Below, piece by piece: positions 13,569-31,854 of a DNA stretch of 40,755 nt. Positions within the stretch are counted from its first letter, which is position 1; each line of letters begins with the position of its first letter. The notes under the pieces were generated by a model. The model saw only the letters and a list, made by a program, of their open reading frames with translations, was not told the DNA's origin and ran no database searches. The position numbers and the translations under genes are program-made. Source of the DNA: Geobacteraceae bacterium GWC2_55_20 (GTDB lineage: Bacteria; Desulfobacterota; Desulfuromonadia; Geobacterales; Pseudopelobacteraceae); assembly GCA_001802125.1 (NCBI GenBank), contig MGZK01000063.1, forward strand, positions 1 to 40,755, read 5' to 3'.

Positions 13569-13596
13569 GCGGGTAGCCGCAAGGCCCGCCCCTACG
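13569..13596. repeat. GTAGGGGCGGGCC-type palindrome over nspC stop codon
   Basis: GCGGG and CCCGC arms flank TAGCCGCAAGG, followed by CCCTACG. On the minus strand this reads CGTAGGGGCGGGCC, and the TAG is the nspC stop codon. The sequence resembles widespread short dispersed palindromes, so the present end of nspC may come from such an element. Confidence 0.4.
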
Positions 13597-14746
13597 ATAG
13601 ACGGCTCTTGAAATCCTGGTATTCAAAACTGCGCACAATTTTCAGCTCTCCGGTCCGTGGTTCATAGGTACAGATGTGCGGGTGGTGGATTCCGTTGAAG
13701 GTGGTGGTCTTGACCATCGTGTAATGTGCCATGTCCAGAAATGCCAGCCGGTCGCCGGCTTTCAGCGGCTGTTCGAAGGACCAGTCGCCGATTATGTCCC
13801 CGGCCAGGCAGGAGGGGCCGCCCAGGCGGTAGGTGTGCGATCTCTCCCCTGCGTCGAAGCCGCCCATGATGCCGGGACGATAGGGCATTTCCAGGATGTC
13901 CGGCATGTGGCATGTGGCCGAAACATCCAGGATCGCGATATCCATGCCGTTGTTCACCACATCCAGTACCTCGCCTACCAGCAGGCCGGTGCCGATCGCG
14001 ATCGCCTCGCCCGGTTCCAGGTAGACCTCCAGATCGTACTTCTCCCGGAAATAACTGACCAGTTCCACCAGCCCGTCAATGTCGTACCCCTCGCGGGTGA
14101 TGTGGTGCCCTCCGCCCAGGTTCAGCCATTTCATGCCCGGCAGCAAATGGCCGAACTTCTCCTCGAAAGCCCTGGCGGTACGCTCCAGCGGTTCGAAAAG
14201 CTGCTCGCAGAGGGTATGGAAATGCAGCCCTTCGACTCCGTCCAGGGACCGGCCCTCGAATTCTTTCAGAGGGATGCCCAGGCGCGAGTTGACCGCGCAG
14301 GGGTCGTAGATCTCGGTGTGCCCCTCGGAGTGTTGCGGGTTGACCCGCAAGCCTATGGATACCCGCCCCTTTTCCTTCTCCCACAGCGGTCGGAAACGCT
14401 CCAGCTGGTTGAACGAGTTGAATACCAGGTGGTTAGAGATCCGCAGCAGTTCAATTACGTCGCTTACCTTGAAGGCGGCCGCGAAGCTGTGCACCTCGCG
14501 TCCGAATTCCTCGCGCCCTAGTCGCGCTTCCCAGGGGGAACTGGCGCAGACACCTTGAAGCGTGGCGCTGATCAGCGGGAAAACGCTCCACATCGAGAAG
14601 GCTTTCATCGCCAGCAGGATTTTTGCGCCGCTCCGTTTTTGCACATCATCAAGGATTGCCAGGTTGTGGCGCAGACGGCCAAGGTCAACCACGTAAGCAG
14701 GGGAGGGGGCCAGTTGCAGGATTTTTGGGATGTCGATACCGGTCAA
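13592..14746 (-). CDS. nspC: Carboxynorspermidine/carboxyspermidine decarboxylase NspC
   Basis: A 384-residue PLP enzyme of the alanine-racemase/ornithine-decarboxylase fold, best matching NspC. It removes CO2 from carboxy(nor)spermidine, the last step of the alternative spermidine route. The PLP lysine is Lys48 in ILLAMKAFS. Other motifs are HFHTLCEQ, LNLGGGHHIT, EPGEA and DVSATCHMPDILEMPYRP, typical of this subfamily. The probable start is TTG at 14746 with only a weak upstream site. The pathway partners in this window are the carboxynorspermidine synthase (27079-28275) and SpeA (33425-35332). Confidence 0.93.
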   Translation of the reverse strand: MTGIDIPKILQLAPSPAYVVDLGRLRHNLAILDDVQKRSGAKILLAMKAFSMWSVFPLISATLQGVCASSPWEARLGREEFGREVHSFAAAFKVSDVIELLRISNHLVFNSFNQLERFRPLWEKEKGRVSIGLRVNPQHSEGHTEIYDPCAVNSRLGIPLKEFEGRSLDGVEGLHFHTLCEQLFEPLERTARAFEEKFGHLLPGMKWLNLGGGHHITREGYDIDGLVELVSYFREKYDLEVYLEPGEAIAIGTGLLVGEVLDVVNNGMDIAILDVSATCHMPDILEMPYRPGIMGGFDAGERSHTYRLGGPSCLAGDIIGDWSFEQPLKAGDRLAFLDMAHYTMVKTTTFNGIHHPHICTYEPRTGELKIVRSFEYQDFKSRLS

Positions 14747-14887: not shown

Positions 14888-14918
14888 GCAACCGGGGTTG
14901 CGCCGCAACCGTGGTTGT
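14888..14918 (+). promoter_or_regulatory. Paired GCAACC-NN-GGTTGC palindromes (left doublet)
   Basis: Two 14-bp palindromes, GCAACCGGGGTTGC (14888-14901) and GCAACCGTGGTTGT (14905-14918), have centres 17 bp apart. They lie about 204 bp or more upstream of the sigma-54 promoter at 15122, the usual place for activator binding. The same doublet, with the same spacing, occurs mirrored at 22169-22199. A further half-site GCAACC is at 14966-14971. Confidence 0.8.
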
Positions 14919-15029
14919 CACCCTTTTCTTCCGGTGTAGTCAGCAGGGCGAAAACTGTATCTGACGCAACCTACCCCAATTCCGTTTTAACATCCCGGCC
15001 AGACCACCACTTCTTTGCACACCCATGAT

Positions 15030-15043
15030 GCAACCATGGTTGC
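15030..15043 (+). promoter_or_regulatory. GCAACCATGGTTGC palindrome (left single site)
   Basis: A perfect 14-bp palindrome whose centre is 85.5 bp before the first base of the sigma-54 -24 box. The identical 14-mer is found at 22043-22056 at exactly the same distance from the other sigma-54 promoter. It is probably the promoter-proximal activator site. Confidence 0.8.
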
Positions 15044-15091
15044 ACTCATTTCCACGAAGCCAGATCAGAACAGTTATTGAAAACACATTGA

Positions 15092-15104
15092 TATCAACAT
15101 ATTA
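15092..15104 (+). promoter_or_regulatory. IHF-like site (left)
   Basis: TATCAACATATTA fits the IHF consensus WATCAANNNNTTR at every position. It lies between the activator sites and the sigma-54 promoter, 17 bp before the -24 box, where IHF bending would bring the activator to the polymerase. It is matched at 21982-21994 on the other side. Confidence 0.65.
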
Positions 15105-15121
15105 ATTTCTAACAATTTTGT

Positions 15122-15137
15122 TGGCACCGGCTTTGCT
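15122..15137 (+). promoter_or_regulatory. Sigma-54 promoter of the 15288 gene
   Basis: TGGCAC-CGGCT-TTGCT is a full match to the -24/-12 consensus TGGCAC-N5-TTGC. Transcription should start near 15148, leaving a leader of about 140 bases before the ATG at 15288. Confidence 0.88.
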
Positions 15138-15287
15138 CTTACTGCAGGAAATCCCACACTGAACAGTTATGCAGGAAAAGTAAAAACGAAAGGGGGACTA
15201 GGCAGGATTCGTGGCGATAGTGGTGATGATTTGTTCCAGGTGTGATGTCCGGCAAGCTGAATCAGACAAAGAAAAGGAGAGCTAAAA

Positions 15288-16949
15288 ATGAGAGGAACAG
15301 TGGCAAAGAAGATCAGGAAGATAGCGGCAGTGACGATTGGCGTGACTCTGATGGCCGGCGCGGCCCATGCTGCGACCGTAACCTACACCACGAACCACGT
15401 TTTCAATGTGAACGATGTCCAGTGCGATGAAGCCATTATCGGTTCCGCCTGCCTGGGCGCTCCGGTGGTGCAGGATGACGGCCTCACCTATTTGCCGATC
15501 GATTCGTCCTACGGCTGGAACGTGAAAAACTTTGATCCCACCGCACTGCTGCCGAAGCCGATGGACGGAGTATACGATGACGGCTTTGTGGCCAATATTG
15601 TGGATGGCACCGGCAAGGTGATCGGCATGCGCACGCAGAACCCGGAGACCGGCGACTGGAAGACCGGTCCGATCAAGGGTGAGTGGGTCAGGGGACTCGG
15701 CGCTCTCAAGGCCAAGGCCGCCACCGAGCACTATGTGGTCATGGACCACCTGATGCGCGATCCGGCCAACCCGGTGCAGCTGCAGGAAGGGATTGACTAC
15801 ACCAAGAAGATGAAAGACGACGGCAAATTCCTCTACTACTGGGGCAACTATAACCAGGAGCCGACGCCACTCTATGTCTATGCCAAAATGGACCTGCCAG
15901 CCGCCTGGAAGGTTGCCGGAGCAAACTACAAGGTCACCAAGGCCAAGCTGATTATCGATCACAACATTACCAACAGCCCCAACGACCAGATCCGTCCCGA
16001 GGATTTCGAGAACGAGAACGCCACAGGCGTGCTGCCGCAGTACACCATCTGTCCGACAGCTCCGGCGCTTGCCCCCGCGGCCTGTTCGGGACAGCCCGCC
16101 GGAACCTGGGTCTCCTCGGTCGATTCGCAGGAGGGCGGCGACCTTGAACCGATCCCGGCCGGGAGCGTCTTGAAGGCGCTGAATTCAGCCACCGGACTTT
16201 TCGAGTACACCAACGCCTGGTACACATCGCTTGACCGAGATCCGTTCGCGGGGCTCAACCCCCGTTATCGCCTCAAGTCGAGCAAGTACGGCCAGGACCT
16301 GCCGGGAGTGGAGTTGATCCAGTATGAAGCCGGTACTCCGACCACCACGACCCTGGACCTGCTCAGCATCAAGAACCTGACCACCGGCCTGCCGGTTCTG
16401 GCCGACTCCAAAAACTGGAACAATTACCTCGATCAGTATATCGATCCGCTGACCGGCCAGCTGGTTGACCCGGTAGACGGCTATAGCTTTACCGAATGTC
16501 CCATGACCACCGATTTCGACCTGATGATGTACATCAAGGGCGAAGTGGGCAAGCCGACCATCATCCGCAGTGCCCAGCTGGTGGTTGAATATGACGATCC
16601 CAATGCCGTTCCGCCACCGACCGTTGACCTGACCATCCCGTCGGTTACGATCCCGACCAGCGTTTACAAGAACACCACCAGCACGCTCAGGGTTACGGTG
16701 GACAACCTGCAGTCAGGCGCCGTTCCCGCAGCAGTTACACTGGTTGGCAAAAACAGCTATGGCACCGTAGTCGGCAACTTCTCCACGAACATCACGACTC
16801 CTGCTGACAACAGCGCCGCAATCGTAAGTTTTACCTGGACCGCACCTTCCTACGGCACGACGGTTACCTGGACCGCGACCGTATCGAACCCGAGCGATAT
16901 CAACAATACTAATAACACCAAGACCGCCACTACAGTCGTAAGAAGGTAG
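15288..16949 (+). CDS. Exported protein with C-terminal CARDB-like domain, sigma-54 controlled
   Basis: A 553-residue protein starting MRGTVAKKIRKIAAVTIG with a clear Sec signal peptide (cleavage near AHAA, about residue 28). AGGAG precedes the ATG by nine bases. The middle region is Asp/Tyr/Pro-rich and matches nothing I recognise; it has four scattered cysteines in two pairs and no CXXCH haem motif. Residues about 445-550 form a beta-sandwich of the CARDB adhesion type (DLTIPSVTIPTSVYKNTTST, then SNPSDINNTNNTKTATTVV). A periplasmic or cell-surface location is inferred. It has its own sigma-54 promoter with upstream activator and IHF sites, the twin of the promoter of the convergent gene at 17946-21626, so the two products probably act together. 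Confidence 0.85.
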   Translation: MRGTVAKKIRKIAAVTIGVTLMAGAAHAATVTYTTNHVFNVNDVQCDEAIIGSACLGAPVVQDDGLTYLPIDSSYGWNVKNFDPTALLPKPMDGVYDDGFVANIVDGTGKVIGMRTQNPETGDWKTGPIKGEWVRGLGALKAKAATEHYVVMDHLMRDPANPVQLQEGIDYTKKMKDDGKFLYYWGNYNQEPTPLYVYAKMDLPAAWKVAGANYKVTKAKLIIDHNITNSPNDQIRPEDFENENATGVLPQYTICPTAPALAPAACSGQPAGTWVSSVDSQEGGDLEPIPAGSVLKALNSATGLFEYTNAWYTSLDRDPFAGLNPRYRLKSSKYGQDLPGVELIQYEAGTPTTTTLDLLSIKNLTTGLPVLADSKNWNNYLDQYIDPLTGQLVDPVDGYSFTECPMTTDFDLMMYIKGEVGKPTIIRSAQLVVEYDDPNAVPPPTVDLTIPSVTIPTSVYKNTTSTLRVTVDNLQSGAVPAAVTLVGKNSYGTVVGNFSTNITTPADNSAAIVSFTWTAPSYGTTVTWTATVSNPSDINNTNNTKTATTVVRR

Positions 16950-16963
16950 TACTCGATCCCATG

Positions 16964-16991
16964 GGCGCCGGTGGAGAAATCTGCCGGCGCC
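16964..16991 (+). terminator. Hairpin after the 15288 gene
   Basis: GGCGCCGG and CCGGCGCC pair perfectly around a 12-base loop, 14 bases after the stop codon. There is only a short T-poor tail (TTCCGTT), so it is a weak intrinsic terminator or an mRNA-end stabiliser. Confidence 0.5.
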
Positions 16992-17435
16992 TTCCGTTAT
17001 CCGGCTACGATTCTTAATCGGCAGGAGCCCATGATGAGAGACGGCCGACAGGGAACTCTATATCGCCAAGCGCCTTCGCAATGCGGTATCACCCCGCAGC
17101 CTTGAACACGGAAGCCGCATGCACCATGTACACCAGGCGCCATCCGAATGCTTCCGGACCTTGGGGAAGCTGCCGGCCGGTTCCGAGACGTTTCTATGCT
17201 TGAGGGAAGTAAACTGGAAGGGGTGTTCGAATGCCGCCCAATAGTACCGGAGGCCGGTATTGAACGCCTGATCTAATCTTAGTGACCGTTGCAAGTTGCG
17301 CATGCAACTGCTGATCGGTCATCTATCTTCTCACCTACCAGCATCCCGTATGTTCCGGCGCTTCTTTCGCAAATCCTGTGTTACTCCTTTGGCTGGACAT
17401 GTATCCGCAAGCGGGAAAACACGGGATTGATCGGC
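16992..17435. other. Intergenic region without a recognisable gene
   Basis: About 440 bases lie between the ends of two convergent transcripts. Short open frames exist on both strands (for example 17058-17303 minus) but have no good ribosome binding site, biased composition or familiar motif. It could be the decayed remains of a gene; I see no terminal repeats or intron signature. Confidence 0.4.
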
Positions 17436-17816
17436 TCACTGGATTTGCGTGCGCCAGGGATTCTCGGTTGCCATCAACAGTACTTCGAAATAATTGAACG
17501 GTTTTCTGAAGACAGCTTCAATGCCGGTATCGGTAACCATACTGCGAATATCCGGAATGTCCTCACCGGTGCAGAGTGCAATCCGCATCAGCGGGTTCAA
17601 CAGCTTTGCTTTTTTCGCCAGTACGATTCCATTCATATGGGGCATGTTCAGGTCTGTTATCATGCAGACAAAAGAATGCGCGCTCATTTTCTGAAGGGCT
17701 TCTATGCCGTTTGATGCACAGCAGGCCTCTACGCCTGCGCTTTTGAAAAATTGTTTCAATAGCACGAGCTGGTTTTCATCATCATCAACAATCAAAACCA
17801 TCTTGTTTCCCGCCAT
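17436..17816 (-). CDS. Single-domain response regulator
   Basis: A 126-residue CheY-like receiver with nothing else attached. VLIVDDDE holds the acidic pocket, Asp55 in ITDLNMPHMNG is the phosphoacceptor, LCTGED contains the Thr/Ser switch, and Lys105 is in FRKPF. The start at 17816 is chosen for GGGGAG six bases upstream; the longer frame runs back through the terminator of the neighbouring gene. It follows the large exported protein gene on the same strand but beyond a strong terminator, so its expression may be separate or by read-through. It could take phosphate from the kinase at 23734-26052. Confidence 0.9.
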   Translation of the reverse strand: MAGNKMVLIVDDDENQLVLLKQFFKSAGVEACCASNGIEALQKMSAHSFVCMITDLNMPHMNGIVLAKKAKLLNPLMRIALCTGEDIPDIRSMVTDTGIEAVFRKPFNYFEVLLMATENPWRTQIQ

Positions 17817-17892
17817 ATTGTTCTCCCCAAGGGTTACGTTAGAGAAAAATCCGTCCGTTACCGTTCTCTTACCTATTTGAATCCGAACCGTG

Positions 17893-17927
17893 AAAAAGCG
17901 CGGGGGGATGCCTCGCGGCATCCCCCC
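17893..17927 (-). terminator. Rho-independent terminator after the LVIVD protein gene
   Basis: On the minus strand an 11-bp perfect stem, GGGGGGATGCC with GGCATCCCCCC and a four-base loop, is followed after four bases by TTTTT. It ends the transcript of the 17946-21626 gene and separates it from the downstream response regulator. Confidence 0.85.
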
Positions 17928-17945
17928 TTGAAATAGCATATATAT

Positions 17946-20900
17946 CTACTTGAAGAACAGCATGCCGGCGCCGCCGTCGGCGACATAGAGACGGCCGTTG
18001 CTGATGGTTACAGCTGTACATTCGCCGACTGTCGGTGCGATTCCGGCCAGAACCGGGGCGGCCGGGTTGGTCCAGTCGATCTTGAGGACACCGGCCTCGG
18101 CAAAAGCCACGTAGAAGTTGAGCTGTCCGTTGACCAGGGTGTAATCCATTTTAACTGCTCCGCCGGACCAGGCTTCATAACCGGGAACCAGTTGCAGTTT
18201 GAAACGGCTGACCGCCACCGGGCGATAGTCGTAAAGCAGAACACTGGTATTACTCTTTTTCCAGACTTCAGTCGGCAGCACGCCGGCCGGCAGCGGTGCG
18301 ATCAGGTCGGCCAGGCTGTAGCAGACCACGCCGAAGCTGTCATAGGTAAAATAGGCGTAATCGCCCACGACCTTGACATCCACCGACTGCCCGTCGGCGG
18401 CTCCGACTTTGCCCTCTTCCAGCTTGATCGGTTCGAATACCTTGACCAGTTTCATGTTGAGCACATCGGTGGTATCTACGACGCCTACTCCACGGGGACC
18501 GGCTGCCACGAAGGCGTAGGATTTACCGTCGGCCGGGTTGGTCCAGAGGGCGATGCCGGAGGCGGTGCCGAGTGGTGGTTTCTCGTTGGTGATCGCGCCC
18601 ACATTGGAGACGACGAATCCGCTGTTCATGACGGTCGGATCCTTGGTCATGTCGTAAACGGTGATGCCGTTGCTGCCGTCGGCGGTGTAGGCGTAGTTGC
18701 CCTTGATCTCGACGTCGTAGGAATGATCCTGGTACTGAAGCCCCTTGACGGTTCCGAATTCGCCGTTGTGTTCAAACAGGTCGGTTGTTTTGAGCGGCAG
18801 CAGCAGTGGAGCGCCGATGGCGCCAAGGCCGGACTCGACTCCGGAGATGTCCACCCGGCGCAGACCGTTGCTGGAACAGCTGGCCCAGGCTGTCTGGTGG
18901 TCCGAGTCGAAGACCACGTTGGTAGCGTGTGAAGGAGGATAGATCTTAACGCCGTTGTAGGTTTCCGGATATTCGTCCTGCAGGGTGTTGGCCACCAGAT
19001 GGATGTTGTCGGTGGGGTAGCCGTCGGCATCGACGATACTCCAGGCGGAAACGCCGTGTGGGCCGTCGGCGTGATAGATATACCTGTCTGAAGAGGCAAT
19101 GCCCACGGCGTGGCCGATGGAGATGGTCTGGCCGGGTGTGGCGTCAACTTTTGCGCCGATCTCCTCGGTGGTGGGGAAGTAGACCGGAATGCTGTAGCGG
19201 TCGTCCATCGCGGCCGCGCTCAGGTTAACGATGTCGATGAAGTTGAAACCGCCGGCGCCGACGCAGGCCAGCAGGTCAACATTGCCGGCCGCGGCGATGT
19301 TCATGCTGTCCATCAGCAGGATGCGGTTGCCGTGGCCGCCGATTTCAGCGGTTGTCAGCAGGCAGGGGACATTATACATCCACTTGGGCATGGATTCATT
19401 GTCCAGCGGGTCATAGGCTGCCATGTCGTAGGAGGTTACGAACTCGGTATCCGGGAAGTGGTTTCCGGGGATGCCGTCGGTGTCGTTGTTGTATTGGCCG
19501 TTGGGGCCTTTCCAGCCGGTGCCCGGAATGTGGGCGTTGTCCACGATCACCAGGCCGGCAAAGTGATCGGTCATATAGGCGTAGTTGCCCCTGATCTTGA
19601 CGTCGATGACTCCCGAATCCTTGAGCATGCCGGCTCCGTAGTAGGGGAGGATGCTTTTGGACTGAGTGCCGGTGATCTTGTCCGGGCCGTTGGCCGGTAC
19701 TGCCGGCACATAGCCCAGGTAGGCGCCGTTGAGGAAGGTGGCCGCGGTTGCCGTCTGGTAGCCGGTGATATCAACCGCTACCAGGCCGCCCAGCGAGTAG
19801 GCGATATAAGCGATGGTGCGGCCGCCGAACTCGGCGATATCAACACCCTGGGCCTTGTAGTAGAACTTGCCGTAGCGATCGAAATCGGCCCACGGGGTAG
19901 GGGCGATCACGTTGTTGCGCATGACTTCCAGCAGTTCGAAACTGGTCTGGCGATAGTCGGGCATGCCGGTAAAGGCATCCACGAGCGGTTCGCCGGTAGT
20001 GGCATCCTTCTGCACCACCTGGCGGGCGTCCATGTTGATGAACCAGTCTTCGGTCATGGTTGTATCGGTATAGAGATTGTAACGACCGACCTGCTCAAGC
20101 GATGCGGGATCGAAGATTCCCATTCCCAGTTCTTTCATGCTGACAAACAGTTTGGCGCCGTACAGTTTCAGGTCGATCGGGCCGCCCCAGGGGTTTTCGC
20201 CGGCGTACTGCAGGGTGTATTTCTCCTGATCGATCAGCAGCGTGCCGTCAGCTTCCAGTACCGGTCCGGTTGCGCTGAGCAGGTTGGAAAGAGCGGTCTT
20301 GTGGATGCCGAATTCGTTGTCGGCAATGTAGAGAGTGATGCCGTCGGATTCCAGGGCCGCCACCGGGGCCTGGATGCTGCTGATCTCGTTGCCGGTGAGG
20401 ATGTCTCCGCCGCCTTCGGCGAAGGTGATTCCGCTCTGGTAGTAGTTGAGGTGAACATTGCTGACCTGGATCATGGCGGTCGGATTGGTGATGTTGACCA
20501 CTACGATACCGGCGCTCCCGGCGGAAAGCAGGGCGTAGTTGACGCCATTATAGGTAATCAGGTCGATGTCGTTGATGAAGCCGGGCACGTAGATGGAGTA
20601 GAGCGCATTCTTGGTCATGCCGATCTGTGTCACGCAGAGTCTGCTGCCGATATTGAAAATTGCCCATTCCGTTCCGTTGTAGATGAACTTCTTGACGGCC
20701 GTGGTGGAACCGCCGATCTGGGTGTTGGCGCCGAGTACAGGATACATGTTGGCCGGTTGCACAAAGACGCTGACATCTTTACTTGTGGCTGCCCCGTTTA
20801 AGCCGGTGACGGAGAGCCGGAAAACCATCTCGGTGTCAACCGCTACACTGAGGGTGCTGACGTCGGCGGAAGCCGCGTTGGCACTGGTTGCGGTCAATGG

Positions 20901-21626
20901 TACCTTTGGTCCCTTGACCTGGCTCCACTGGTAGGAGGCGATGGACCCGCTCACTGCCGAAGATAGAGTGACGGCGCTTGCCGCCGCTTCAATGAAGGTG
21001 TCCGGTGTGGCGGTCAGGGAGGTGACGCTTGCGGACGGTGCTGTCAGCGCCACGTTGCTGGTGGTGGTAGCTGCGGCGGTGATCGCAACCTGTTTGGTCG
21101 CGGTGGTAAAGCCGGTGCTGGATACGGTTTGCGTATAGGCACCGGCTGTCACGCCGGTGATGGTGTACTTGCCGGCGGTGTCGGTCAGGGCCGAGTAGGC
21201 GCCGGGAGTCAGGCTGACCGTAGCGGCCGGAATGGCTGCGCCGGTGGCGCTGTTGGTAACCGTGCCGGTAATGATGCCGGGAACGGCTACCTTGTTGAGT
21301 GCAAAATTAATGGTGGTTTTGGCGCCACCTTTGATTCTTGTCGTGGCTGAACCTGCTTGATATCCGGACGCCGAGCAACTCACCGAGTAGGTGGCAGCGG
21401 TGAGCGACAGGGTGTATACCCCGGATGAATTAGCCGTGGCGGTAAAGGTGCCTGGTGTGCCGGCAGCGGTGATCGTTGCCCCCGGGATCGTTGTTGATGT
21501 GCCGGCGACCGTGACTTTTCCCGTCAGGGTCCCGGTGGCGGCCAGAGCCGTTCCAGTGCCAAGGCAGAAGCAGAGGCAGAGGGTTATGTTGATGGCCAGA
21601 TTGAACCATCGTGAGATTGTGTGCAT
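17946..21626 (-). CDS. Large exported LVIVD-repeat beta-propeller protein
   Basis: A 1226-residue protein starting MHTISRWFNLAINITL with a signal peptide cleaved near ALA-AT (about residue 29). The start at 21626 has AGGAGGT at the right distance; the longer frame upstream lacks this. Residues about 31-200 hold two carboxypeptidase-regulatory-like beta-sandwich repeats (GTLTGKVTVAG, then GIITGTVTNSATG). About 205-290 is a PKD/Ig-like domain, and about 300-1226 a long run of LVIVD-type repeats (GSAGIVVVNITNP, FAGLVIVDN, GSNGITVYDMT, AGPRGVGVVD) expected to form one or more beta-propellers. No haem motifs are present. It is likely secreted or on the cell surface as a binding or scaffold protein. 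Expression is predicted from a sigma-54 promoter shared in design with the convergent 15288 gene. Confidence 0.88.
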   Translation of the reverse strand: MHTISRWFNLAINITLCLCFCLGTGTALAATGTLTGKVTVAGTSTTIPGATITAAGTPGTFTATANSSGVYTLSLTAATYSVSCSASGYQAGSATTRIKGGAKTTINFALNKVAVPGIITGTVTNSATGAAIPAATVSLTPGAYSALTDTAGKYTITGVTAGAYTQTVSSTGFTTATKQVAITAAATTTSNVALTAPSASVTSLTATPDTFIEAAASAVTLSSAVSGSIASYQWSQVKGPKVPLTATSANAASADVSTLSVAVDTEMVFRLSVTGLNGAATSKDVSVFVQPANMYPVLGANTQIGGSTTAVKKFIYNGTEWAIFNIGSRLCVTQIGMTKNALYSIYVPGFINDIDLITYNGVNYALLSAGSAGIVVVNITNPTAMIQVSNVHLNYYQSGITFAEGGGDILTGNEISSIQAPVAALESDGITLYIADNEFGIHKTALSNLLSATGPVLEADGTLLIDQEKYTLQYAGENPWGGPIDLKLYGAKLFVSMKELGMGIFDPASLEQVGRYNLYTDTTMTEDWFINMDARQVVQKDATTGEPLVDAFTGMPDYRQTSFELLEVMRNNVIAPTPWADFDRYGKFYYKAQGVDIAEFGGRTIAYIAYSLGGLVAVDITGYQTATAATFLNGAYLGYVPAVPANGPDKITGTQSKSILPYYGAGMLKDSGVIDVKIRGNYAYMTDHFAGLVIVDNAHIPGTGWKGPNGQYNNDTDGIPGNHFPDTEFVTSYDMAAYDPLDNESMPKWMYNVPCLLTTAEIGGHGNRILLMDSMNIAAAGNVDLLACVGAGGFNFIDIVNLSAAAMDDRYSIPVYFPTTEEIGAKVDATPGQTISIGHAVGIASSDRYIYHADGPHGVSAWSIVDADGYPTDNIHLVANTLQDEYPETYNGVKIYPPSHATNVVFDSDHQTAWASCSSNGLRRVDISGVESGLGAIGAPLLLPLKTTDLFEHNGEFGTVKGLQYQDHSYDVEIKGNYAYTADGSNGITVYDMTKDPTVMNSGFVVSNVGAITNEKPPLGTASGIALWTNPADGKSYAFVAAGPRGVGVVDTTDVLNMKLVKVFEPIKLEEGKVGAADGQSVDVKVVGDYAYFTYDSFGVVCYSLADLIAPLPAGVLPTEVWKKSNTSVLLYDYRPVAVSRFKLQLVPGYEAWSGGAVKMDYTLVNGQLNFYVAFAEAGVLKIDWTNPAAPVLAGIAPTVGECTAVTISNGRLYVADGGAGMLFFK

Positions 21627-21949
21627 TAGGTACCTCCTGTGAAATTTGTGTTTGACGTTGCTCGGAAAACATATGTCCCTGGATTGGCGCCATGCTTGAT
21701 GCAACATGGAGTCGAAGCACTTCTCTATGATTGCGAAGGTTGGCCTGATTTCTTGTCGCTCCAGGTTCTGCCGCGCCAACCCTGGTTTTCCTGGCTGCTT
21801 GATCCTTTTTCCTGACGGATCATTATTCCGATTCGAATCGTTGTTGCCATATCGGCCGTTGAATTCTGTTCGGCTACATCTATCCCCTCCTTTCGTTGCA
21901 TCTGCAGGTGCACTGGCGGAATTTGAGAGCCGGACTTTGTACTACAAGA

Positions 21950-21964
21950 GCATAGGCAGTGCCA
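21950..21964 (-). promoter_or_regulatory. Sigma-54 promoter of the LVIVD protein gene
   Basis: On the minus strand TGGCAC-TGCCT-ATGC, with a complete -24 box and one mismatch in the -12 box. Transcription should start near 21938, giving a leader of about 310 bases. The sequence just upstream is visibly related to that upstream of the 15122 promoter. Confidence 0.8.
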
Positions 21965-21981
21965 AGTATATTGTTAGTTTT

Positions 21982-21994
21982 TAATATATTGATA
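21982..21994 (-). promoter_or_regulatory. IHF-like site (right)
   Basis: TATCAATATATTA on the minus strand fits WATCAANNNNTTR fully and lies 17 bp before the -24 box, exactly as on the left side. Confidence 0.65.
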
Positions 21995-22042
21995 CTAATA
22001 GGCATTTGGCGCTTCTGGTGGATTGGAACTGTGTGAATGGCT

Positions 22043-22056
22043 GCAACCATGGTTGC
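22043..22056 (-). promoter_or_regulatory. GCAACCATGGTTGC palindrome (right single site)
   Basis: The same perfect 14-mer as at 15030-15043. Its centre is 85.5 bp before the -24 box of the LVIVD gene promoter. Confidence 0.8.
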
Positions 22057-22168
22057 CAGGAGATGTGATTTCGCAGGACGGTACGGCAGCGGTAAAAGGA
22101 ATCGCCGTTTATAACATCCTGCGAATATTGGGTTTAGCTGTTGTAGGACGCGTAAATTGAAAGGGGTG

Positions 22169-22199
22169 ACAACCCTGGTTGCGGTGTAACCAGGGTTGC
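22169..22199 (-). promoter_or_regulatory. Paired GCAACC-NN-GGTTGC palindromes (right doublet)
   Basis: ACAACCCTGGTTGC (22169-22182) and GTAACCAGGGTTGC (22186-22199) have centres 17 bp apart and lie 126 bp from the single site (125 on the left). They are about 100 bp downstream of the sigma-54 activator gene, on the side facing the LVIVD gene. Confidence 0.8.
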
Positions 22200-22300: not shown

Positions 22301-23731
22301 TTAGGTTCCGGTCAATCTATGCTGACTTGAAAAATCCTTCTTCAGCCTTTTTTGCAGGGCCTGACGGCTGATGCCGAGCATCGATGCAGCCATGGTCTGG
22401 TTGCCCCTGGAACGCTGCAGCGCTTCCTTGACCACATGCTGTCCCGCCTCCTCCAGTGTTGGCAATCTTTCCGGAAAGAGCACGGACTCCTGTGGCTCCT
22501 GCTCTATTTCACTCAGTTCCTTGTTGAAACCGATCTTTTCCTTGAAGATATCCATGGAGAGGATATGAGAACGGTGCTGGCTCACAGCATCGAAAATCAT
22601 GGCGCGCAGTTCCCTGACATTGCCGGGGAAGCTATGGAGCGAGAGCAGGGTTGCCAGCTCTTTTGGCGGGGTAGGCTTGTTTTTGCCCAAAGCTGTAGCC
22701 GCCTCATCCAGGAACTGGTCGATCAGCATCGGCAGGTCTTCAAAACGCTCCCGCAGAGGAGGTATGTGGATCTGATGGGCACTGAGGCGATAGTAGAGGT
22801 CCTGGCGGAAGCCGTTGGTGCCGCTCCTTCCGGACAGGTCGTGGTTGGTCGCAAAGACCAGTCTTGTCTTGACTTTGCGTGGCGCGTCACAGCCGATCTG
22901 GTAATATTCCCCCTCCTGCAGGAGGCGCAGCAGTTTCAACTGGGAGAGATGACTCAGATCGCCAATTTCATCCAGGAACAGTGTGCCGCCTGCCGCCACC
23001 TCGATCATGCCGCGCCGATCACGTTCGGCACAGGTGAAAGCGCCTTTGACATGGCCGAAGAGGGTGTCGGAAAAAACATTGTCGTCGAGTCCGGCCACAT
23101 TAACCGCAACCAAAGGGCCTTCGGGACAACGGATGCGGTGAACGGCCCTGGCCATCAGTTCCTTGCCTACGCCACTCTCCCCGGTAATCAGGATCGGTTC
23201 GCTGCTCTGTGCCACCGCCTCGCAATACTGCATGATCGCCCGCATTTTTTTGTTGCAGGTTGTGATCTTGTCAAATGCTTCCGGGTGCTCAATATTGTCT
23301 TCCAGGAATATGGATTTCAAACGTTGATTCTCCTTACGCACATCCTGCATGGAGAAGGCGCGTTGGATGCCAGCAATCAGGCGGTCTTTTTCAACGGATT
23401 TTATGAAATAGTCGCAGGCGCCCAATTGCATGCAGCGCACCGCAGTGTCAACCTGGTTAATTCCACTCAGCACAATCACGGGAATCTCGGGATGATCCTT
23501 GACGATCATCGGCAACAGCTCCTGCCCTGTAAAATGCGGCATGGTGAGGTCCAGCAGGATCATGCTCACAGCGGTTCTGCTCAATATCGGGAGCACTTCA
23601 CGACTGTCTGAACATTTGATCACGTTGGTGATCCCGGTGTCATTGCGCAGGGCCAGTGAGAGACTGCGCAGCCAGGGAGCTTCATCGTCAACCAAAAGAA
23701 TCGGATTGGCCGGATAAAGTTCATCGCTCAT
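22301..23731 (-). CDS. Sigma-54-dependent response regulator, NtrC family
   Basis: A 476-residue activator with a receiver domain (LLVDDE, Asp61 in LLDLTMP, Lys111), an AAA+ domain (Walker A GESGVGKE 184-191, Walker B TLFLDE 250-255) and a Fis-type helix-turn-helix at the C-terminus (GNQTMAASMLGISRQALQKRL). The sigma-54 contact loop reads GAFTCA (230-235) in place of GAFTGA; Cys234 replaces the usual Gly. The start follows AGGAGG located in the last codons of the upstream kinase gene, 2 bp away, so kinase and regulator are coupled. It is the prime candidate to bind the six GCAACC palindromes and drive the two exported-protein genes. Confidence 0.95.
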   Translation of the reverse strand: MSDELYPANPILLVDDEAPWLRSLSLALRNDTGITNVIKCSDSREVLPILSRTAVSMILLDLTMPHFTGQELLPMIVKDHPEIPVIVLSGINQVDTAVRCMQLGACDYFIKSVEKDRLIAGIQRAFSMQDVRKENQRLKSIFLEDNIEHPEAFDKITTCNKKMRAIMQYCEAVAQSSEPILITGESGVGKELMARAVHRIRCPEGPLVAVNVAGLDDNVFSDTLFGHVKGAFTCAERDRRGMIEVAAGGTLFLDEIGDLSHLSQLKLLRLLQEGEYYQIGCDAPRKVKTRLVFATNHDLSGRSGTNGFRQDLYYRLSAHQIHIPPLRERFEDLPMLIDQFLDEAATALGKNKPTPPKELATLLSLHSFPGNVRELRAMIFDAVSQHRSHILSMDIFKEKIGFNKELSEIEQEPQESVLFPERLPTLEEAGQHVVKEALQRSRGNQTMAASMLGISRQALQKRLKKDFSSQHRLTGT

Positions 23732-23733
23732 GG

Positions 23734-26052
23734 TTATATTGCCTCCTGTTCGACCGGTAGATAGAGATTGACAGTTGTTCCTTTATCCGGTTCCGAATGG
23801 AATTCAAGGGCGCCGCCATAGTTCTTGACTATGCGCATCGAAACCGACAGGCCGAGACCGGTGCCGCCGCTCTGCCGTTTTGTGGTGAAAAACGGGTCGG
23901 TAATGTGTGGCATGTTCTCCTTGCTTATTCCGACCCCTTCATCGCGTACCGTAATAACAGACGATTTTCGTTCCTGATTGAAACCGGTGGAGACGTGTAT
24001 GCCCTTCTCCATGTCCGGCAGTGCCTGGCAGGCATTGAGGATCAGGTTAGCCACCACCTGTTCCATGTGCTGCTTGTTGGCGAAAAAGCGCGGAAGTTTC
24101 TCAGCCAGTTCAATAGTCAGGTTGCTGGTTGATGTTTTTATCGTATTACCCACCAGTCGGATTACCTGCTCAACCACCTGGTTCAAGTCGATCTCTTCAC
24201 TCAGGTTTTTGTCATCCGCCAGGGCAAAATCCTTGAGGTCGCTGACGATACTCTTGATCCGTCCCGCGCTTTCAAACATTTCCGCGAAAAGGTGCGGTAA
24301 TTCACAACACATCTCCGAATAGGGGAATCCGGCCAGTTTGAATTCACCGGATTCTTCGTAGTAGCGCTGCAGGATCGGGGCCGCATCGCAGCATGCCTTT
24401 TTCAGCAACTCCGCGTTAAGAAGGATCAGTGCGTTGGGATTGTTAATCTCGTGCGCTACTCCGGCGGCCAGTTCTCCCAGCGCTACCAGGCGCCGGGTAC
24501 GGGCCGCTTCCTCGTACAGGCGGTTTTTCTCGGTAATATCGCAGGCCAGCATGATTACATAGGAAATCTCGTCGGAGCCGTCCCTCACAGGAAAAGCTTT
24601 TACTTCCAGAGTCCTTTCGTCGGGAGTTGTGATGATCGATTCTTCGGCAACGCCGGTTTGAAAGGCTTTGATCGCCGGGCAGTTGTCGCAGATGGATGTT
24701 CGATTGTAGAGCAGGTTGCAGCAGTACTCTTCGAGGGTGGCCTCTGAATTCTTTATGAAGAATTTGTCCGTTCCCTTGTTTGACCAGACGACTTTCATAT
24801 CCTTGGATATCAGGGTCAGGCTGTCGGGGATGCCGTCCAGTACTATTTGGAACTGCTGTGATAATTGCCGATAGTTCTGCTCGCTCTTGCGCAGTTGCAT
24901 TTCGGCCCGGCGCCGAAGCAGGATATTCCGGGTGAGCAGCAAAATTACGATGATGGCACTGCACAGGATTGTTCCCGACCAGAGTAGCTGGGATCTGCTC
25001 AGCTTGTAAAATGGTTGAGGGTCATTCAGCAGGATACGGTCAGAGGGCAGCAACTTTATGGCAATTCCCAGTCGCTGCAGCTCCCTGTAATCAAAGGTCG
25101 GAGGCAATGTTGGAGTCTGTTGCGCCGGGGTAAGGGAAGCTTGCTTGCCACCCAGAATCCGCAGCGCGGAGCGAGCCGCAATCCGGCCCTGCTCTCGCAT
25201 GTTCAGCAAAGGACCGCCAACAATTCCTTCGCCGAGAAATACATCCCAGAAACTGTACAGCGGAAGGTGTGTCTGACGCAGCAACCCGGTCTGTTCGTAA
25301 AAAGACAGTAGATTGCCGGTACGGTCCCATATGGAACCGTTGACAAGCAGGATCGAGTCGGGAGCCACGGAACGCAGTCGTTCGATGATGGTCTCAGCCG
25401 GGACGTCGTTCCAGAAATCAAACGTGATCTGTGTCGCGAAGGTTTGGGAAACCGCCATCAGATGCTCGGCATTCAGCCTGTCCGCCAGATCATGTGTGCC
25501 ACCGATGACTATGATTTTAGAGGCTTGCGGATGGAGTGTCAGCGCCTGGCGAATCACTCCTTCAAAATCCGGTTCGGAGCTGACAGGGGTGTGCCCGGCC
25601 GATATAACTGAAGCGGGGTCGGTACCGGCAATGCCGCAGGATACTATTGGAACATCGTTAAAAAGACTCTCCCGGTTGTCGAGGGCATACTGGAGCGCCT
25701 CGTTACCGGATGCAATCACCAGGTTGAAAGCGCGTTTGTTCAACTTGTGTTGCATCACGGCATCACGCATGCGGGATGATTCGACGTCCAGCCGGTGACG
25801 CTTTACGTCCAGATATTCCACGTCCATGTGAATCTGCTCCGGGGAATCCGACAGCACATCCTGGATGCCTCCCATGACATGGTCTGTCCACGGAAACCCC
25901 GGATGATAGGAGTGGAGAACAAGGATGTGGTTGGCCGCCTGGGCTTTATAATCGGCGGTCACCGGAGTGGCGGCCAAAAAAATAAGCGTCGTGGAGGAGA
26001 TAAGGATCGAGAGAAAAATTATGGTGCGATTAAAGAGCCTGATCCTGGCCAT
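23734..26052 (-). CDS. Membrane sensor histidine kinase with ABC-type binding domain
   Basis: A 772-residue kinase. An N-terminal signal/anchor (about 10-30) leads to a periplasmic domain (about 40-325) resembling ABC transporter substrate-binding proteins (HILVLHSYHPGFPWTD, IVIGGTHDLADR). A membrane helix (about 356-376), a PAS domain (about 395-510), HisKA (GVAHEINNPNALIL, His534) and a GHKL ATPase (NACQALP, DEGVGI, GGTGLGLS) follow. The PAS domain carries four cysteines, Cys444, Cys445, Cys455 and Cys458, in a CC-x9-CxxC pattern that might hold a metal or act as a redox switch. The ligand is unknown. It is translationally coupled to the sigma-54 regulator. Confidence 0.93.
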   Translation of the reverse strand: MARIRLFNRTIIFLSILISSTTLIFLAATPVTADYKAQAANHILVLHSYHPGFPWTDHVMGGIQDVLSDSPEQIHMDVEYLDVKRHRLDVESSRMRDAVMQHKLNKRAFNLVIASGNEALQYALDNRESLFNDVPIVSCGIAGTDPASVISAGHTPVSSEPDFEGVIRQALTLHPQASKIIVIGGTHDLADRLNAEHLMAVSQTFATQITFDFWNDVPAETIIERLRSVAPDSILLVNGSIWDRTGNLLSFYEQTGLLRQTHLPLYSFWDVFLGEGIVGGPLLNMREQGRIAARSALRILGGKQASLTPAQQTPTLPPTFDYRELQRLGIAIKLLPSDRILLNDPQPFYKLSRSQLLWSGTILCSAIIVILLLTRNILLRRRAEMQLRKSEQNYRQLSQQFQIVLDGIPDSLTLISKDMKVVWSNKGTDKFFIKNSEATLEEYCCNLLYNRTSICDNCPAIKAFQTGVAEESIITTPDERTLEVKAFPVRDGSDEISYVIMLACDITEKNRLYEEAARTRRLVALGELAAGVAHEINNPNALILLNAELLKKACCDAAPILQRYYEESGEFKLAGFPYSEMCCELPHLFAEMFESAGRIKSIVSDLKDFALADDKNLSEEIDLNQVVEQVIRLVGNTIKTSTSNLTIELAEKLPRFFANKQHMEQVVANLILNACQALPDMEKGIHVSTGFNQERKSSVITVRDEGVGISKENMPHITDPFFTTKRQSGGTGLGLSVSMRIVKNYGGALEFHSEPDKGTTVNLYLPVEQEAI

Positions 26053-27078: not shown

Positions 27079-28275
27079 TTAAAGCTCCGGCCAATCGCCG
27101 CCGTCGATCACAACCGTCGGCAGGCCCATCGGACCCAGCACATCCAGGAACAGTTCCGGGTCGAACTGCTCCATGTTCCATACTCCCGGCGCATGCCACT
27201 TGCCGGTCAGCATCATGATTGCGCCGACCACTGCAGGTACGCCGGTGGTGTAGCTGATGGCCTGGGATTGGACCTCTTTGTAACAGGCCTCGTGGTCGCA
27301 GATGTTGTAGATATAGACCTGTTTCGGCTTCCCGTCCCTGGTGCCACGGGCGATCACACCGATGCAGGTCTTGCCCTTGGTCAGCGGTCCCAGGCTGCCC
27401 GGATCGGGGAGCAGGGCTTTCAGGAACTGGATCGGCACGATCTTCTGGCCGTTGAACTCCACCTCGTCGATGCGGGTCATGCCCACGTTCTGCAGCACCT
27501 CCAGGTGCTTTAGGTAGTTGTCGGAGAAGGTCATCCAGAACTGGGCCTTCTTGATGGTCGGTATATGCTTGACCAGCGACTCCATTTCCTCATGGTAGAG
27601 GCGGTAGCAGTTCATCGGTCCGATCCCTTCCGGGAAGTCGAACACCCGTTTGGTAGAAAGCGGCAGTGATTCCACGAACCGGCCGTTCTCCCAGTGACGG
27701 CAGGTGGCGGTCACCTCGCGGATATTGATCTCCGGGTTGAAGTTGGTGGCAAATGGCTGGCCGTGGCTGCCGGCGTTGGCGTCGATGATGTCGATCTCCT
27801 CCACCACGTCCAGGTACTTCTTTGCCGCCAGCGCGGTATATACGTTGGTTACGCCCGGATCGAAACCGGAACCCAGAAGCGCCATCAGACCCTTCTCCCT
27901 GAAGCGTTCCTGGTAGGCCCACTGCCAGGAGTATTCGAACCTGGCTGTGTCAAGCGGTTCGTAGTTGGCGGTGTCCAGGTAATCCACCCCGGTTTCCAGG
28001 CAGGCGTCCATGATGTGCAGATCCTGGTAGGGGAGCGCCACGTTGATCACGAGCCTGGGCTGAACCTGTTTGATCAGCGCCACCAGCTCAGGGACATTGT
28101 CGGCATCCACCTGGGCGGTCTTGATGCTGCCCGCCAATTGGGCGGCAATAATGTCGCACTTGGACCTGGTGCGCGATGCCAGGGTTATCTCGCCGAAGAT
28201 GTCGCGGCGCTGAGCGCATTTATGGGTGACAACCTGGCCGACGCCTCCGGCGCCGATGATTAGGATTTTGTTCAT
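27079..28275 (-). CDS. Carboxynorspermidine synthase (saccharopine dehydrogenase family)
   Basis: A 398-residue enzyme of the saccharopine dehydrogenase fold, with an NAD(P)-binding GAGGVGQVV loop at residues 8-16. LPYQDLHIMDAC, GVDYLDTANYE and LLGSGFDPGVTNV are typical of carboxynorspermidine dehydrogenase. It condenses aspartate semialdehyde with putrescine or diaminopropane, NADPH-dependent, to give the substrate of NspC. AAGGAAC precedes the ATG. In many genomes this gene sits next to nspC; here about 12 kb separate them, both on the minus strand. Confidence 0.9.
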   Translation of the reverse strand: MNKILIIGAGGVGQVVTHKCAQRRDIFGEITLASRTRSKCDIIAAQLAGSIKTAQVDADNVPELVALIKQVQPRLVINVALPYQDLHIMDACLETGVDYLDTANYEPLDTARFEYSWQWAYQERFREKGLMALLGSGFDPGVTNVYTALAAKKYLDVVEEIDIIDANAGSHGQPFATNFNPEINIREVTATCRHWENGRFVESLPLSTKRVFDFPEGIGPMNCYRLYHEEMESLVKHIPTIKKAQFWMTFSDNYLKHLEVLQNVGMTRIDEVEFNGQKIVPIQFLKALLPDPGSLGPLTKGKTCIGVIARGTRDGKPKQVYIYNICDHEACYKEVQSQAISYTTGVPAVVGAIMMLTGKWHAPGVWNMEQFDPELFLDVLGPMGLPTVVIDGGDWPEL

Positions 28276-30183: not shown

Positions 30184-30298
30184 GGTTAACGATAATACTA
30201 AACCATTCGCGAGAATGGGACGGAAAGCCTACAGGGTCTCACAGAGACAGCCGGGTCGCCGAAATCTCCAGAAGATATTCGGCGACCCGGCTTTTTTT
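30184..30298 (+). promoter_or_regulatory. GEMM-I riboswitch 1, cGAMP-type (GEMM-Ib) candidate
   Basis: The core CTAAACCATTCGCGAGAATG, then GGACGGAAAGCCT, then GTCTC-ACA-GAGAC and AGCCGGGT reproduces the GEMM-I fold: P2 capped by a GCGA tetraloop, then P3. The junction reads AATACTAAACC, as I recall for Geobacter GEMM-Ib aptamers that bind 3',3'-cGAMP, not the GGGCAAACC of cyclic-di-GMP aptamers; the ligand is therefore an inference. The 3' strand (GCCGGGTCGCC) is also the first half of the following terminator, so ligand binding should prevent termination (ON switch). Confidence 0.85.
30250..30298 (+). terminator. Riboswitch 1 expression-platform terminator
   Basis: A perfect 14-bp stem, GCCGGGTCGCCGAA (30250-30263) with TTCGGCGACCCGGC (30278-30291), followed by seven T residues. 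It shares its 5' half with the aptamer. Confidence 0.9.
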
Positions 30299-30336: not shown

Positions 30337-30449
30337 GGTTAACGATAATACTAAACCATTCGCGAGAATGGGACGGAAAGCCTACAGGGTCTCATGGAGA
30401 CAGCCGGGTCGCCGAAATATCCAGCAGATATTCGGCCCCGGCTTTTTTT
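30337..30449 (+). promoter_or_regulatory. GEMM-I riboswitch 2, cGAMP-type (GEMM-Ib) candidate
   Basis: A second aptamer, identical to the first except for the P3 loop (CATG in place of CACA within GTCTC...GAGAC). It has its own terminator. With no promoter seen between the two units, RNA polymerase must pass both to reach the L,D-transpeptidase gene. Confidence 0.85.
30403..30449 (+). terminator. Riboswitch 2 expression-platform terminator
   Basis: GCCGGG (30403-30408) pairs with CCCGGC (30437-30442) and CCGAA with TTCGG. An internal TCG/C mismatch interrupts the stem, and seven T residues follow. It should be weaker than the first terminator, which has a perfect stem. Confidence 0.8.
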
Positions 30450-30543: not shown

Positions 30544-31854
30544 ATGTGCAGAATCATTGAGCTGTTACCATTATCCAGTACGCTTCGTCTTATCGCTCTT
30601 ATTTTCGTTGTCATATCCCTGAATGGATGTGCTGCGCTGAAGGGAGCTCATGAGGAGTCCCAACTTGTTCCAAGGCATCTGGAAGAATATGTCGAACGAA
30701 ATATTTATTCTGTCGCAAAAGATGATTATGTCATTGGCCGATTGAGATTCATCACACTAGAGAAGGGGGATACGCTGCCGGATATTGCAAGGCACTTCGG
30801 ACTGGGACTCAATGGAGTAAGCGCGGCTAATCAAGGGGTGGATATTTGGGCGCCAAAGGCCGGAGAACGTATCATGCTGCCCCTGAGTTTTGTCCTGCCG
30901 GATGCTCCCAGGAAAGGCATCGTAATCAATCTGGCCGCAATGAGGCTTTTTCAATTTAAAGCAGATGGCGAATCTTCGGCCGTATTGACCTTCCCGGTGG
31001 GCGTCGGTACCGAAGAGCGACCCTCGCCCACAGGCCAAATGCATGTGGTGCGCAAAGTAAACCGGCCGACCTGGCATGTGCCAGCCTCGATTGCCAGGGA
31101 TCATCTGAAAAAGGGAGATATTCTGCCAGCAGCCGTGCTGCCGGGGCCTCAAAATCCACTGGGAGAATACGCGCTGTATTTAAGTAAGCCGAGCTATTTG
31201 ATCCATGGCACTAATAAGCCGGCCAGCATTGGTCTCAGGGCAACCAATGGCTGCATAAGACTCTATCCGGAAAGCGTGAAAAGACTCTATGAGAACACAC
31301 CGGTTAAAACACCTGTAAACATCGTTAACCAGCCATACCTCCTGGGACAAAGCAATGGAGTGGTTTACATGGAGGTTCATGAGTCCACGGAAGACATGGA
31401 TTCTGCCGAGTTCGACAGGGTTTATGCAAAATTGAGAATTCTAGAGAGGGAATCAGGGCAAGCGCTTGACTGGAGTAAAGTCAAGAAAGTATTGGCCGAG
31501 GCCCGCGGGATTCCTGTTCCCATATTAGAGATCAGACAAGGAGGTGGAAAAGGGGTTGCGGAACCCACGGAGGTCAAGCACCCCAGCGAATTATACGGCA
31601 GACCTAAAATAGCGGAACTGAAAACTGATGCGTGGTCTGTTTTGGCAGCTGACCTGCGCGACGAGACTGATGCAGTGAGGCTTGCCGCCATCATCAACCA
31701 CCAGGGACCACGGATTCCGGCCAGGGTGGTAATAAAGAACGCTGGTTACCAGGTTGTCGCCGGTCCGTTCAATGATGTCCGGGAGGCCAGAGATGCAATC
31801 AAACGCCTGAAAATCGATTTGGAAATAGATGGTAGATTGATCGAACCAATCTAG
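30544..31854 (+). CDS. LysM-YkuD-SPOR L,D-transpeptidase lipoprotein
   Basis: A 436-residue protein with a lipoprotein signal (LNGC, lipidated Cys29), a LysM-like peptidoglycan-binding domain (about 68-116), and a YkuD L,D-transpeptidase domain (about 123-265) with catalytic His221 (LIHGTNKPASIG) and Cys237 (ATNGCIRL). The C-terminal part (about 355-436) looks like a SPOR domain (AARVV-type repeat, YQVVAGPF, EARDAIKRL) that binds denuded glycan. Such enzymes make 3-3 crosslinks or attach proteins to meso-diaminopimelate. The ribosome binding site (AAGGA) is unusually far, about 15 bases, from the ATG. It lies directly under control of the two tandem riboswitches. Confidence 0.92.
   Translation: MCRIIELLPLSSTLRLIALIFVVISLNGCAALKGAHEESQLVPRHLEEYVERNIYSVAKDDYVIGRLRFITLEKGDTLPDIARHFGLGLNGVSAANQGVDIWAPKAGERIMLPLSFVLPDAPRKGIVINLAAMRLFQFKADGESSAVLTFPVGVGTEERPSPTGQMHVVRKVNRPTWHVPASIARDHLKKGDILPAAVLPGPQNPLGEYALYLSKPSYLIHGTNKPASIGLRATNGCIRLYPESVKRLYENTPVKTPVNIVNQPYLLGQSNGVVYMEVHESTEDMDSAEFDRVYAKLRILERESGQALDWSKVKKVLAEARGIPVPILEIRQGGGKGVAEPTEVKHPSELYGRPKIAELKTDAWSVLAADLRDETDAVRLAAIINHQGPRIPARVVIKNAGYQVVAGPFNDVREARDAIKRLKIDLEIDGRLIEPI

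Follow-up and report, generated by a model that had tools for sequence, protein, structure and literature searches.

How might two convergent genes for apparently exported proteins come under common control, and which factor would read the repeated palindromes in front of them? The question is raised by a 40,755-nucleotide stretch of DNA from Geobacteraceae bacterium GWC2_55_20 (hereafter the window), in which a gene beginning at 15288 and a gene for an LVIVD-repeat protein face each other, each behind a predicted sigma-54 promoter. We consider it highly probable that a kinase-driven activator encoded next to the LVIVD gene would act from a three-site enhancer, helped by an IHF bend, on three promoters of this genome.

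Both upstream regions carry the 14-base palindrome GCAACC-NN-GGTTGC, against which all mismatches given below are counted. Promoter A lies on the + strand before the 15288 gene. Its distal pair consists of palindromes at 14888-14901 (perfect) and 14905-14918 (one mismatch), the centres being 17 base pairs (bp) apart, and is followed by a perfect proximal palindrome at 15030-15043 (GCAACCATGGTTGC), a predicted IHF consensus at 15092-15104 (+ strand, TATCAACATATTA) and a -24/-12 box at 15122-15137 (+ strand, TGGCACCGGCTTTGCT; core 15122-15136, TGGCACCGGCTTTGC). Promoter B lies on the - strand before the LVIVD gene and has its distal pair at 22169-22182 and 22186-22199 (one mismatch each), an equally perfect proximal palindrome at 22043-22056 (GCAACCATGGTTGC), a predicted IHF consensus at 21982-21994 (- strand, TATCAATATATTA) and a -24/-12 box at 21949-21964 (- strand, TGGCACTGCCTATGCT; core 21964-21950, TGGCACTGCCTATGC). 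The palindromes are predicted enhancer sites, and transcription would be expected to start near 15148 at promoter A and near 21938 at promoter B.

All these elements lie where the initial annotation had placed them, and its distances are reproduced on both sides. The distal and proximal centres are 125 and 126 bp apart at the two promoters, the proximal centre is 85.5 bp from -24 at both, and a perfect IHF consensus begins 30 bp before -24 and 55.5 bp after the proximal centre. The palindromes are less uniform than had been described: both proximal sites are perfect, but only one of the four distal ones is (14888). At up to two mismatches the window holds eight palindromes, six of which are the sites of promoters A and B, compared with a shuffle mean of 2.33, and none of 100 shuffles reaches eight. 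The -24/-12 boxes alone are not above chance in the window (four matches at up to one mismatch, shuffle mean 3.53). The flanking DNA had been said to have drifted, which holds for the 100 bp that precede the proximal site (26/100 positions identical between A and B) but not for the stretch from the proximal palindrome to -24, where 32/65 positions outside the IHF site are still identical (p ~1.5e-4 by shuffling). This difference suggests that the two promoters probably share descent, and their identical spacings more likely reflect such descent than a requirement of the system.

Across the 4.55-megabase genome the exact motif occurs at five places, three in the window and two forming a 17-bp pair on a second contig (C91), and the reversed control at none. 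Loose single matches mean little because at up to two mismatches the whole genome contains 345 motif matches compared with 191 for the control. Beside the pair on C91 lie a third palindrome (two mismatches) and a box, CGGCATAGCAGTTGC, which face a gene for a protein of 387 amino acids. When the palindrome core is required to be followed after 66-90 bp by a -24/-12 box, exactly three matches are found in this genome (A, B and C91) and none for the control. In a close relative (G011) the end of the window (L007 position 4550) and the start of C91 (from 4478) are found on one contig with an overlap of ~73 bp; thus, the third promoter (promoter C) probably lies ~5 kilobases beyond the window on its right side. 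A search of the genome and its relatives for the motif before a -24/-12 box, as suggested by the initial annotation, yields a third promoter here and the same kind of promoter in the genomes that carry the regulator. The proposal of one activator with a defined sigma-54 regulon is strongly supported by comparative evidence, while the regulon comprises at least three promoters instead of the two first envisaged. A 6S RNA gene (61.6 bits) is located near the third promoter on C91 (L006 2953-3130, + strand).

The likely binder of the palindromes is the regulator encoded at 22301-23731 (- strand), an NtrC-type protein with profile matches to a receiver, a sigma-54 AAA+ domain and a Fis-type helix-turn-helix (HTH) domain (Response_reg, E-value 1.4e-21; Sigma54_activat, 2.1e-52; HTH_8, 4.6e-10). 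We surveyed 141 genomes of the order for orthologs, scoring the best 11 first-look candidates per genome (G labels denote genomes, with G000 the genome of this window, and L labels denote loci). The regulator has orthologs in eight of the 141 genomes (62-100% identity), the next matches reaching 57-59%, and all eight carriers have promoters of the kind described here, 15 in total. At up to three mismatches the 17-bp pair is present in six of the 141 genomes, all among the eight carriers, and the controls give none; the weaker pairs of the other two carriers, G006 and G107, were found by inspecting the regulator locus. Among 395 genomes drawn from the phylum the pair occurs only in G000 and G039, and a partly degenerate pair scan of the contig collection returned six stretches, all on contigs of G024, G011, G020 and G058, and no new cases. 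At 15 loci around other activators (47-59% identity; 11 loci in other genomes and four paralogs in this one) we found neither a palindrome at up to one mismatch nor a palindrome pair of offset 15-19 bp at up to five mismatches. The viral contigs contained no relative and no pair. When 23 activators were placed in a tree, a branch with a support of 98/97 separated the eight motif-linked ones from the others. Co-inheritance of this kind, together with the conservation described below, leaves the regulon well supported as a real unit on comparative grounds.

The regulator is adjoined by a sensor histidine kinase at 23734-26052 (- strand) with PAS, HisKA and HATPase domains and apparent N-terminal signal or transmembrane segments recognized by eye. 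A full-length homolog of this kinase adjoins the regulator in 8/8 carrier genomes, which supports a two-component input. The sensor region matches ABC_sub_bind weakly in relatives (best E-value 1.7e-5 in G039; 24.7 compared with a cut-off of 25.9); this match was not reported for the kinase of the window, and no relative of the sensor region was found in the PDB at an E-value of up to 1.

The 15 promoters of the eight genomes allow the constant parts of the layout to be separated from the variable ones. Three palindromic sites, the pair and the proximal one, are found upstream of all 15. An offset of 17 bp is the best among 10-39 bp in every distal pair (0-6 mismatches in total), and in each promoter 0/200 shuffles equal the observed pair score. 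The 17-bp pair is the constant element of the layout. The distance from the proximal centre to -24 ranges from 80.5 to 87.5 bp and that between distal and proximal sites from 125 to 232 bp, so the base-exact distances of A and B, stressed in the initial annotation, are no requirement of the layout. Manual inspection revealed no helical phase shared by the distal-proximal distances. The best -24/-12 box in range, a predicted sigma-54 element, has GG-N10-GC at 15/15 promoters. Among G000, G011 and G024, with gaps counted as variable, the palindrome arms vary at 2/108 columns and the central dinucleotides at 8/18, compared with 331/1043 in the surrounding DNA, while the IHF core varies at 3/27 and the -24/-12 boxes of promoters A, B and C at 0/33. 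The contrast between arms and central dinucleotides indicates that selection keeps the arms of the palindrome but not its centre.

The predicted IHF sites were sought between enhancer and -24 with the consensus WATCARNNNNTTR, in the form given in the accessible text of PMC7962754. The consensus is perfect in 6/15 promoters (A and B of G000, G011 and G024) and has one mismatch in 8/15 and two in 1/15. In 13/15 promoters the best match begins 29-30 bp before -24, two of the 13 being reversed. This constant position is a better argument for the site than the quality of the match, though nine of the 13 come from three close genomes.

On this basis we infer a course of events that includes phosphotransfer, binding, hexamer assembly, IHF action and activation. 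The sensor kinase would phosphorylate the adjacent activator, which in turn would bind the GCAACC-NN-GGTTGC palindromes as dimers. The distal pair with its 17-bp offset and the proximal site ~80-88 bp before -24 would together hold three dimers, equivalent to one AAA+ hexamer, and a bend of the IHF type in the DNA that links the proximal site to -24 would carry this hexamer onto the sigma-54 polymerase. The promoters controlled here would be those of the 553-residue protein gene, the LVIVD gene and a choice-of-anchor F gene on C91. With this two-plus-one split, the DNA that separates the distal pair from the proximal site would be expected to loop. A stricter form of this mechanism, which we put forward only tentatively and regard as rather doubtful, makes the split enhancer obligatory. 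A rigid 17-bp platform for two dimers far upstream and one promoter-near dimer would be looped together to close the hexamer, activation thus requiring two nested loops, one from distal to proximal site and one across the IHF bend to -24, and the module would be inherited with its own kinase and with exported cargo (choice-of-anchor F, LVIVD).

Several observations weigh against the proposed mechanism. The eight carriers amount to ~4 independent lineages, given the close kinship within each of the groups G000/G011/G024, G039/G058 and G006/G020. The distal pairs of G107 have five and six mismatches and that of G006 four, pairs as weak as these would escape the scan at up to three mismatches if they occurred elsewhere, and for both the -24 boxes and the pairs the best position within a range was used. 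IHF sites with one or two mismatches are within shuffle expectation: the one-mismatch cases are equalled by 61-197 of 500 shuffles, such matches being common in shuffles because the DNA is rich in A+T. The sigma-54 contact loop of the activator (residues 226-231 region) reads GAFTCA in G000, G011 and G024 instead of the GAFTGA found in the other five of eight orthologs; according to the accessible text of PMC2941729, NorR with a cysteine at that position is active without the nitric oxide signal and still partly regulated. Seven other activator loci also adjoin a kinase, which matches over the catalytic part of 250-276 residues only. Outside the clade the promoter pattern has one match each in G042, G094 and G002, of 14 rows. 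LVIVD genes away from the regulator locus in G039, G011 and G107 show only scattered palindrome matches with two mismatches and are thus site-less paralogs. Finally, a single exact palindrome is present in 34/58 relatives, of which 28 lack the ortholog, compared with 7/58 for the control. A lone palindrome, which may be recognized by other factors too, therefore has no diagnostic value; such value lies in the pair. Eight loci with an exact palindrome (L011, L012, L013, L015, L016, L019, L020 and L021) were set aside as background, with no second palindrome nearby.

Among the alternatives, the one that survives best keeps the regulator but assigns activation to the distal pair alone or to the proximal site alone, the remainder serving to tune or repress or being residual. 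The widely varying distal-proximal spacing would fit such a division of labor, as would the weaker proximal site on C91 and the weaker distal pair of G107. However, both parts are retained at 15/15 promoters and the arms are conserved in G000, G011 and G024, and we hold activation by one part to be possible but improbable. It is unlikely that the palindromes serve a different sigma-54 activator and that the adjacent regulator is merely a neighbor. The genome does contain eight activator matches at E-values of up to 1e-100, the regulator itself included, the putative recognition helix of one paralog (G000par4) is similar (ITRQALNKRL versus ISRQALQKRL), and the lone palindromes in relatives without the ortholog could be read in the same way. 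Yet the sites and the regulator co-occur in 8/8 genomes, the sites are absent around the 15 other activators including G000par4, and the motif-linked regulators group together in the tree. That the palindromes bind a repressor or a nucleoid protein while another factor drives the sigma-54 promoters is very improbable, for although the distal pair of promoter A, ~140 bp upstream of a divergent decarboxylase-type ORF (open reading frame; start 14746), could act there, the order of three sites before -24/-12 at 15 promoters, the proximal distance of 80.5-87.5 bp and the exactly three pattern matches in the genome argue against it.

The three predicted targets of the kinase-driven activator appear to be exported proteins. 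Target A (15288-16949, + strand) is a protein of 553 amino acids with an apparent signal peptide recognized by eye. Its structure prediction is poor (mean predicted local distance difference test, pLDDT, 38.0), with only residues ~450-552 at usable confidence. This C-terminal part is all-beta, matches CARDB weakly (E-value 0.013, below the cut-off), and is the only part with similarity (34%) to a small ORF that follows the targets in G020 and G006. Target B (17946-21626, - strand) is an LVIVD-repeat protein of 1226 amino acids, for which inspection by eye likewise suggests a signal peptide. The mechanical ORF extends to 21779, but comparison by eye with the G107 homolog makes ATG 21626 a more likely start than TTG 21779. 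Behind it a stand-alone response-regulator receiver is encoded at 17436-17816 (- strand; ATG 17816 by eye, mechanical ORF from 17939), which is only a candidate member of the regulon. A strong terminator-like hairpin at 17902-17927 separates the two genes (-26.9 kcal/mol, z-score -2.69, 4/200 shuffles as good).

The third target, the protein of 387 amino acids encoded on C91, belongs to the choice-of-anchor F family (NF033657; 293.6 bits compared with a cut-off of 50, E-value 2e-87), and its structure prediction is also poor (mean pLDDT 37.1). It is 92.5% identical to the regulator-adjacent target in G039 and in G058 (L038) and 33-36% identical to that in G020 and G006. Homology between the 553-residue protein and the choice-of-anchor F protein was considered and is not detectable (hhalign probability 2.3). 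The family is present in 7/141 genomes of the order, with one match each, and all seven are regulator carriers; G107 alone of the eight is without it. In G107 the regulator lies next to an LVIVD target (81%), behind which come a protein of 820 amino acids bearing multiheme cytochrome signatures and a receiver and, at the contig end, a second promoter before an apparent second LVIVD gene, recognized by eye. The cytochrome hints at a cell-surface or electron-transfer role for the targets. LVIVD genes at other loci (two on C1 of G039, one each on C59 of G011 and C27 of G107) were rejected as targets, with no palindrome at up to one mismatch. The distant paralog on C27 of G107 (L093 5625, - strand) has a strong sigma-54 box, TGGCATAGCAATTGCT, and no palindrome before it, so that more than one activator may control genes of the LVIVD type.

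The regulon is flanked by a gene of the pyridoxal-phosphate-dependent decarboxylase type (13592-14746) and one of the saccharopine dehydrogenase type (27079-28275), which may be a split carboxynorspermidine pair. Further along the window, two tandem c-di-GMP-I riboswitch aptamers (30187-30263 and 30340-30416; 45.8 bits each, cut-off 35) lie upstream of the ORF at 30544-31854.

With these assignments an orphan NtrC-type activator can be given a candidate binding motif, together with a promoter layout and a set of targets, and the choice-of-anchor F family, whose name was not found in the literature searched, gains a regulatory handle. Moreover, the constant 17-bp pair and the variable arm to the proximal site form a natural series in which enhancer layout can be set against hexamer assembly. 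The motif was initially thought to be without a known description, and this still stands: five spellings of the 14 bases were not found in the literature searched, nor was GCAAC at the start of a word in the main text of PMC2725144 or PMC4641369, nor GCAAC, GTTGC or CAACC anywhere in the main text of PMC3333781, the logos in figures and the supplements lying outside these searches. Apparently, the motif is undescribed so far.

Domain order relates the regulator to the NtrC, AtoC and PEP-CTERM-box (PrsR) activators, which likewise combine a receiver, a sigma-54 AAA+ domain and a Fis-type HTH domain in one chain with an adjacent kinase. Its best NCBIfam scores (AtoC 306.6, NtrC 291.9 and PEP_resp_reg 286.8 bits) are nevertheless far below the curated cut-offs of these families (714, 558.6 and 502.6 bits, respectively), which sets it apart from the regulators proper. 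The NtrC site is TGCACC-N5-GGTGCA, and the palindrome described here differs from it. As far as the accessible parts of these papers go, the RpoN regulon of Geobacter sulfurreducens has been treated (PMC2725144), and activator regulons have been rebuilt from conserved sites at sigma-54 promoters in Desulfovibrio vulgaris (PMC4641369), an approach that our reconstruction resembles. The closest parallel in layout is NorR at norVW, where, according to the accessible text, three enhancer sites are essential and scaffold a higher-order oligomer (PMC2941729). The promoters described here likewise have three predicted activator sites ahead of the sigma-54 element. Unlike NorR, which senses through a GAF domain, the regulator has a receiver, and its predicted sites form a two-plus-one arrangement spread over 125-232 bp. 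Hence, the kind of switch, an NtrC-type activator, is known already, while this example of it, with a predicted split two-plus-one enhancer and a constant pair, is new and well supported.

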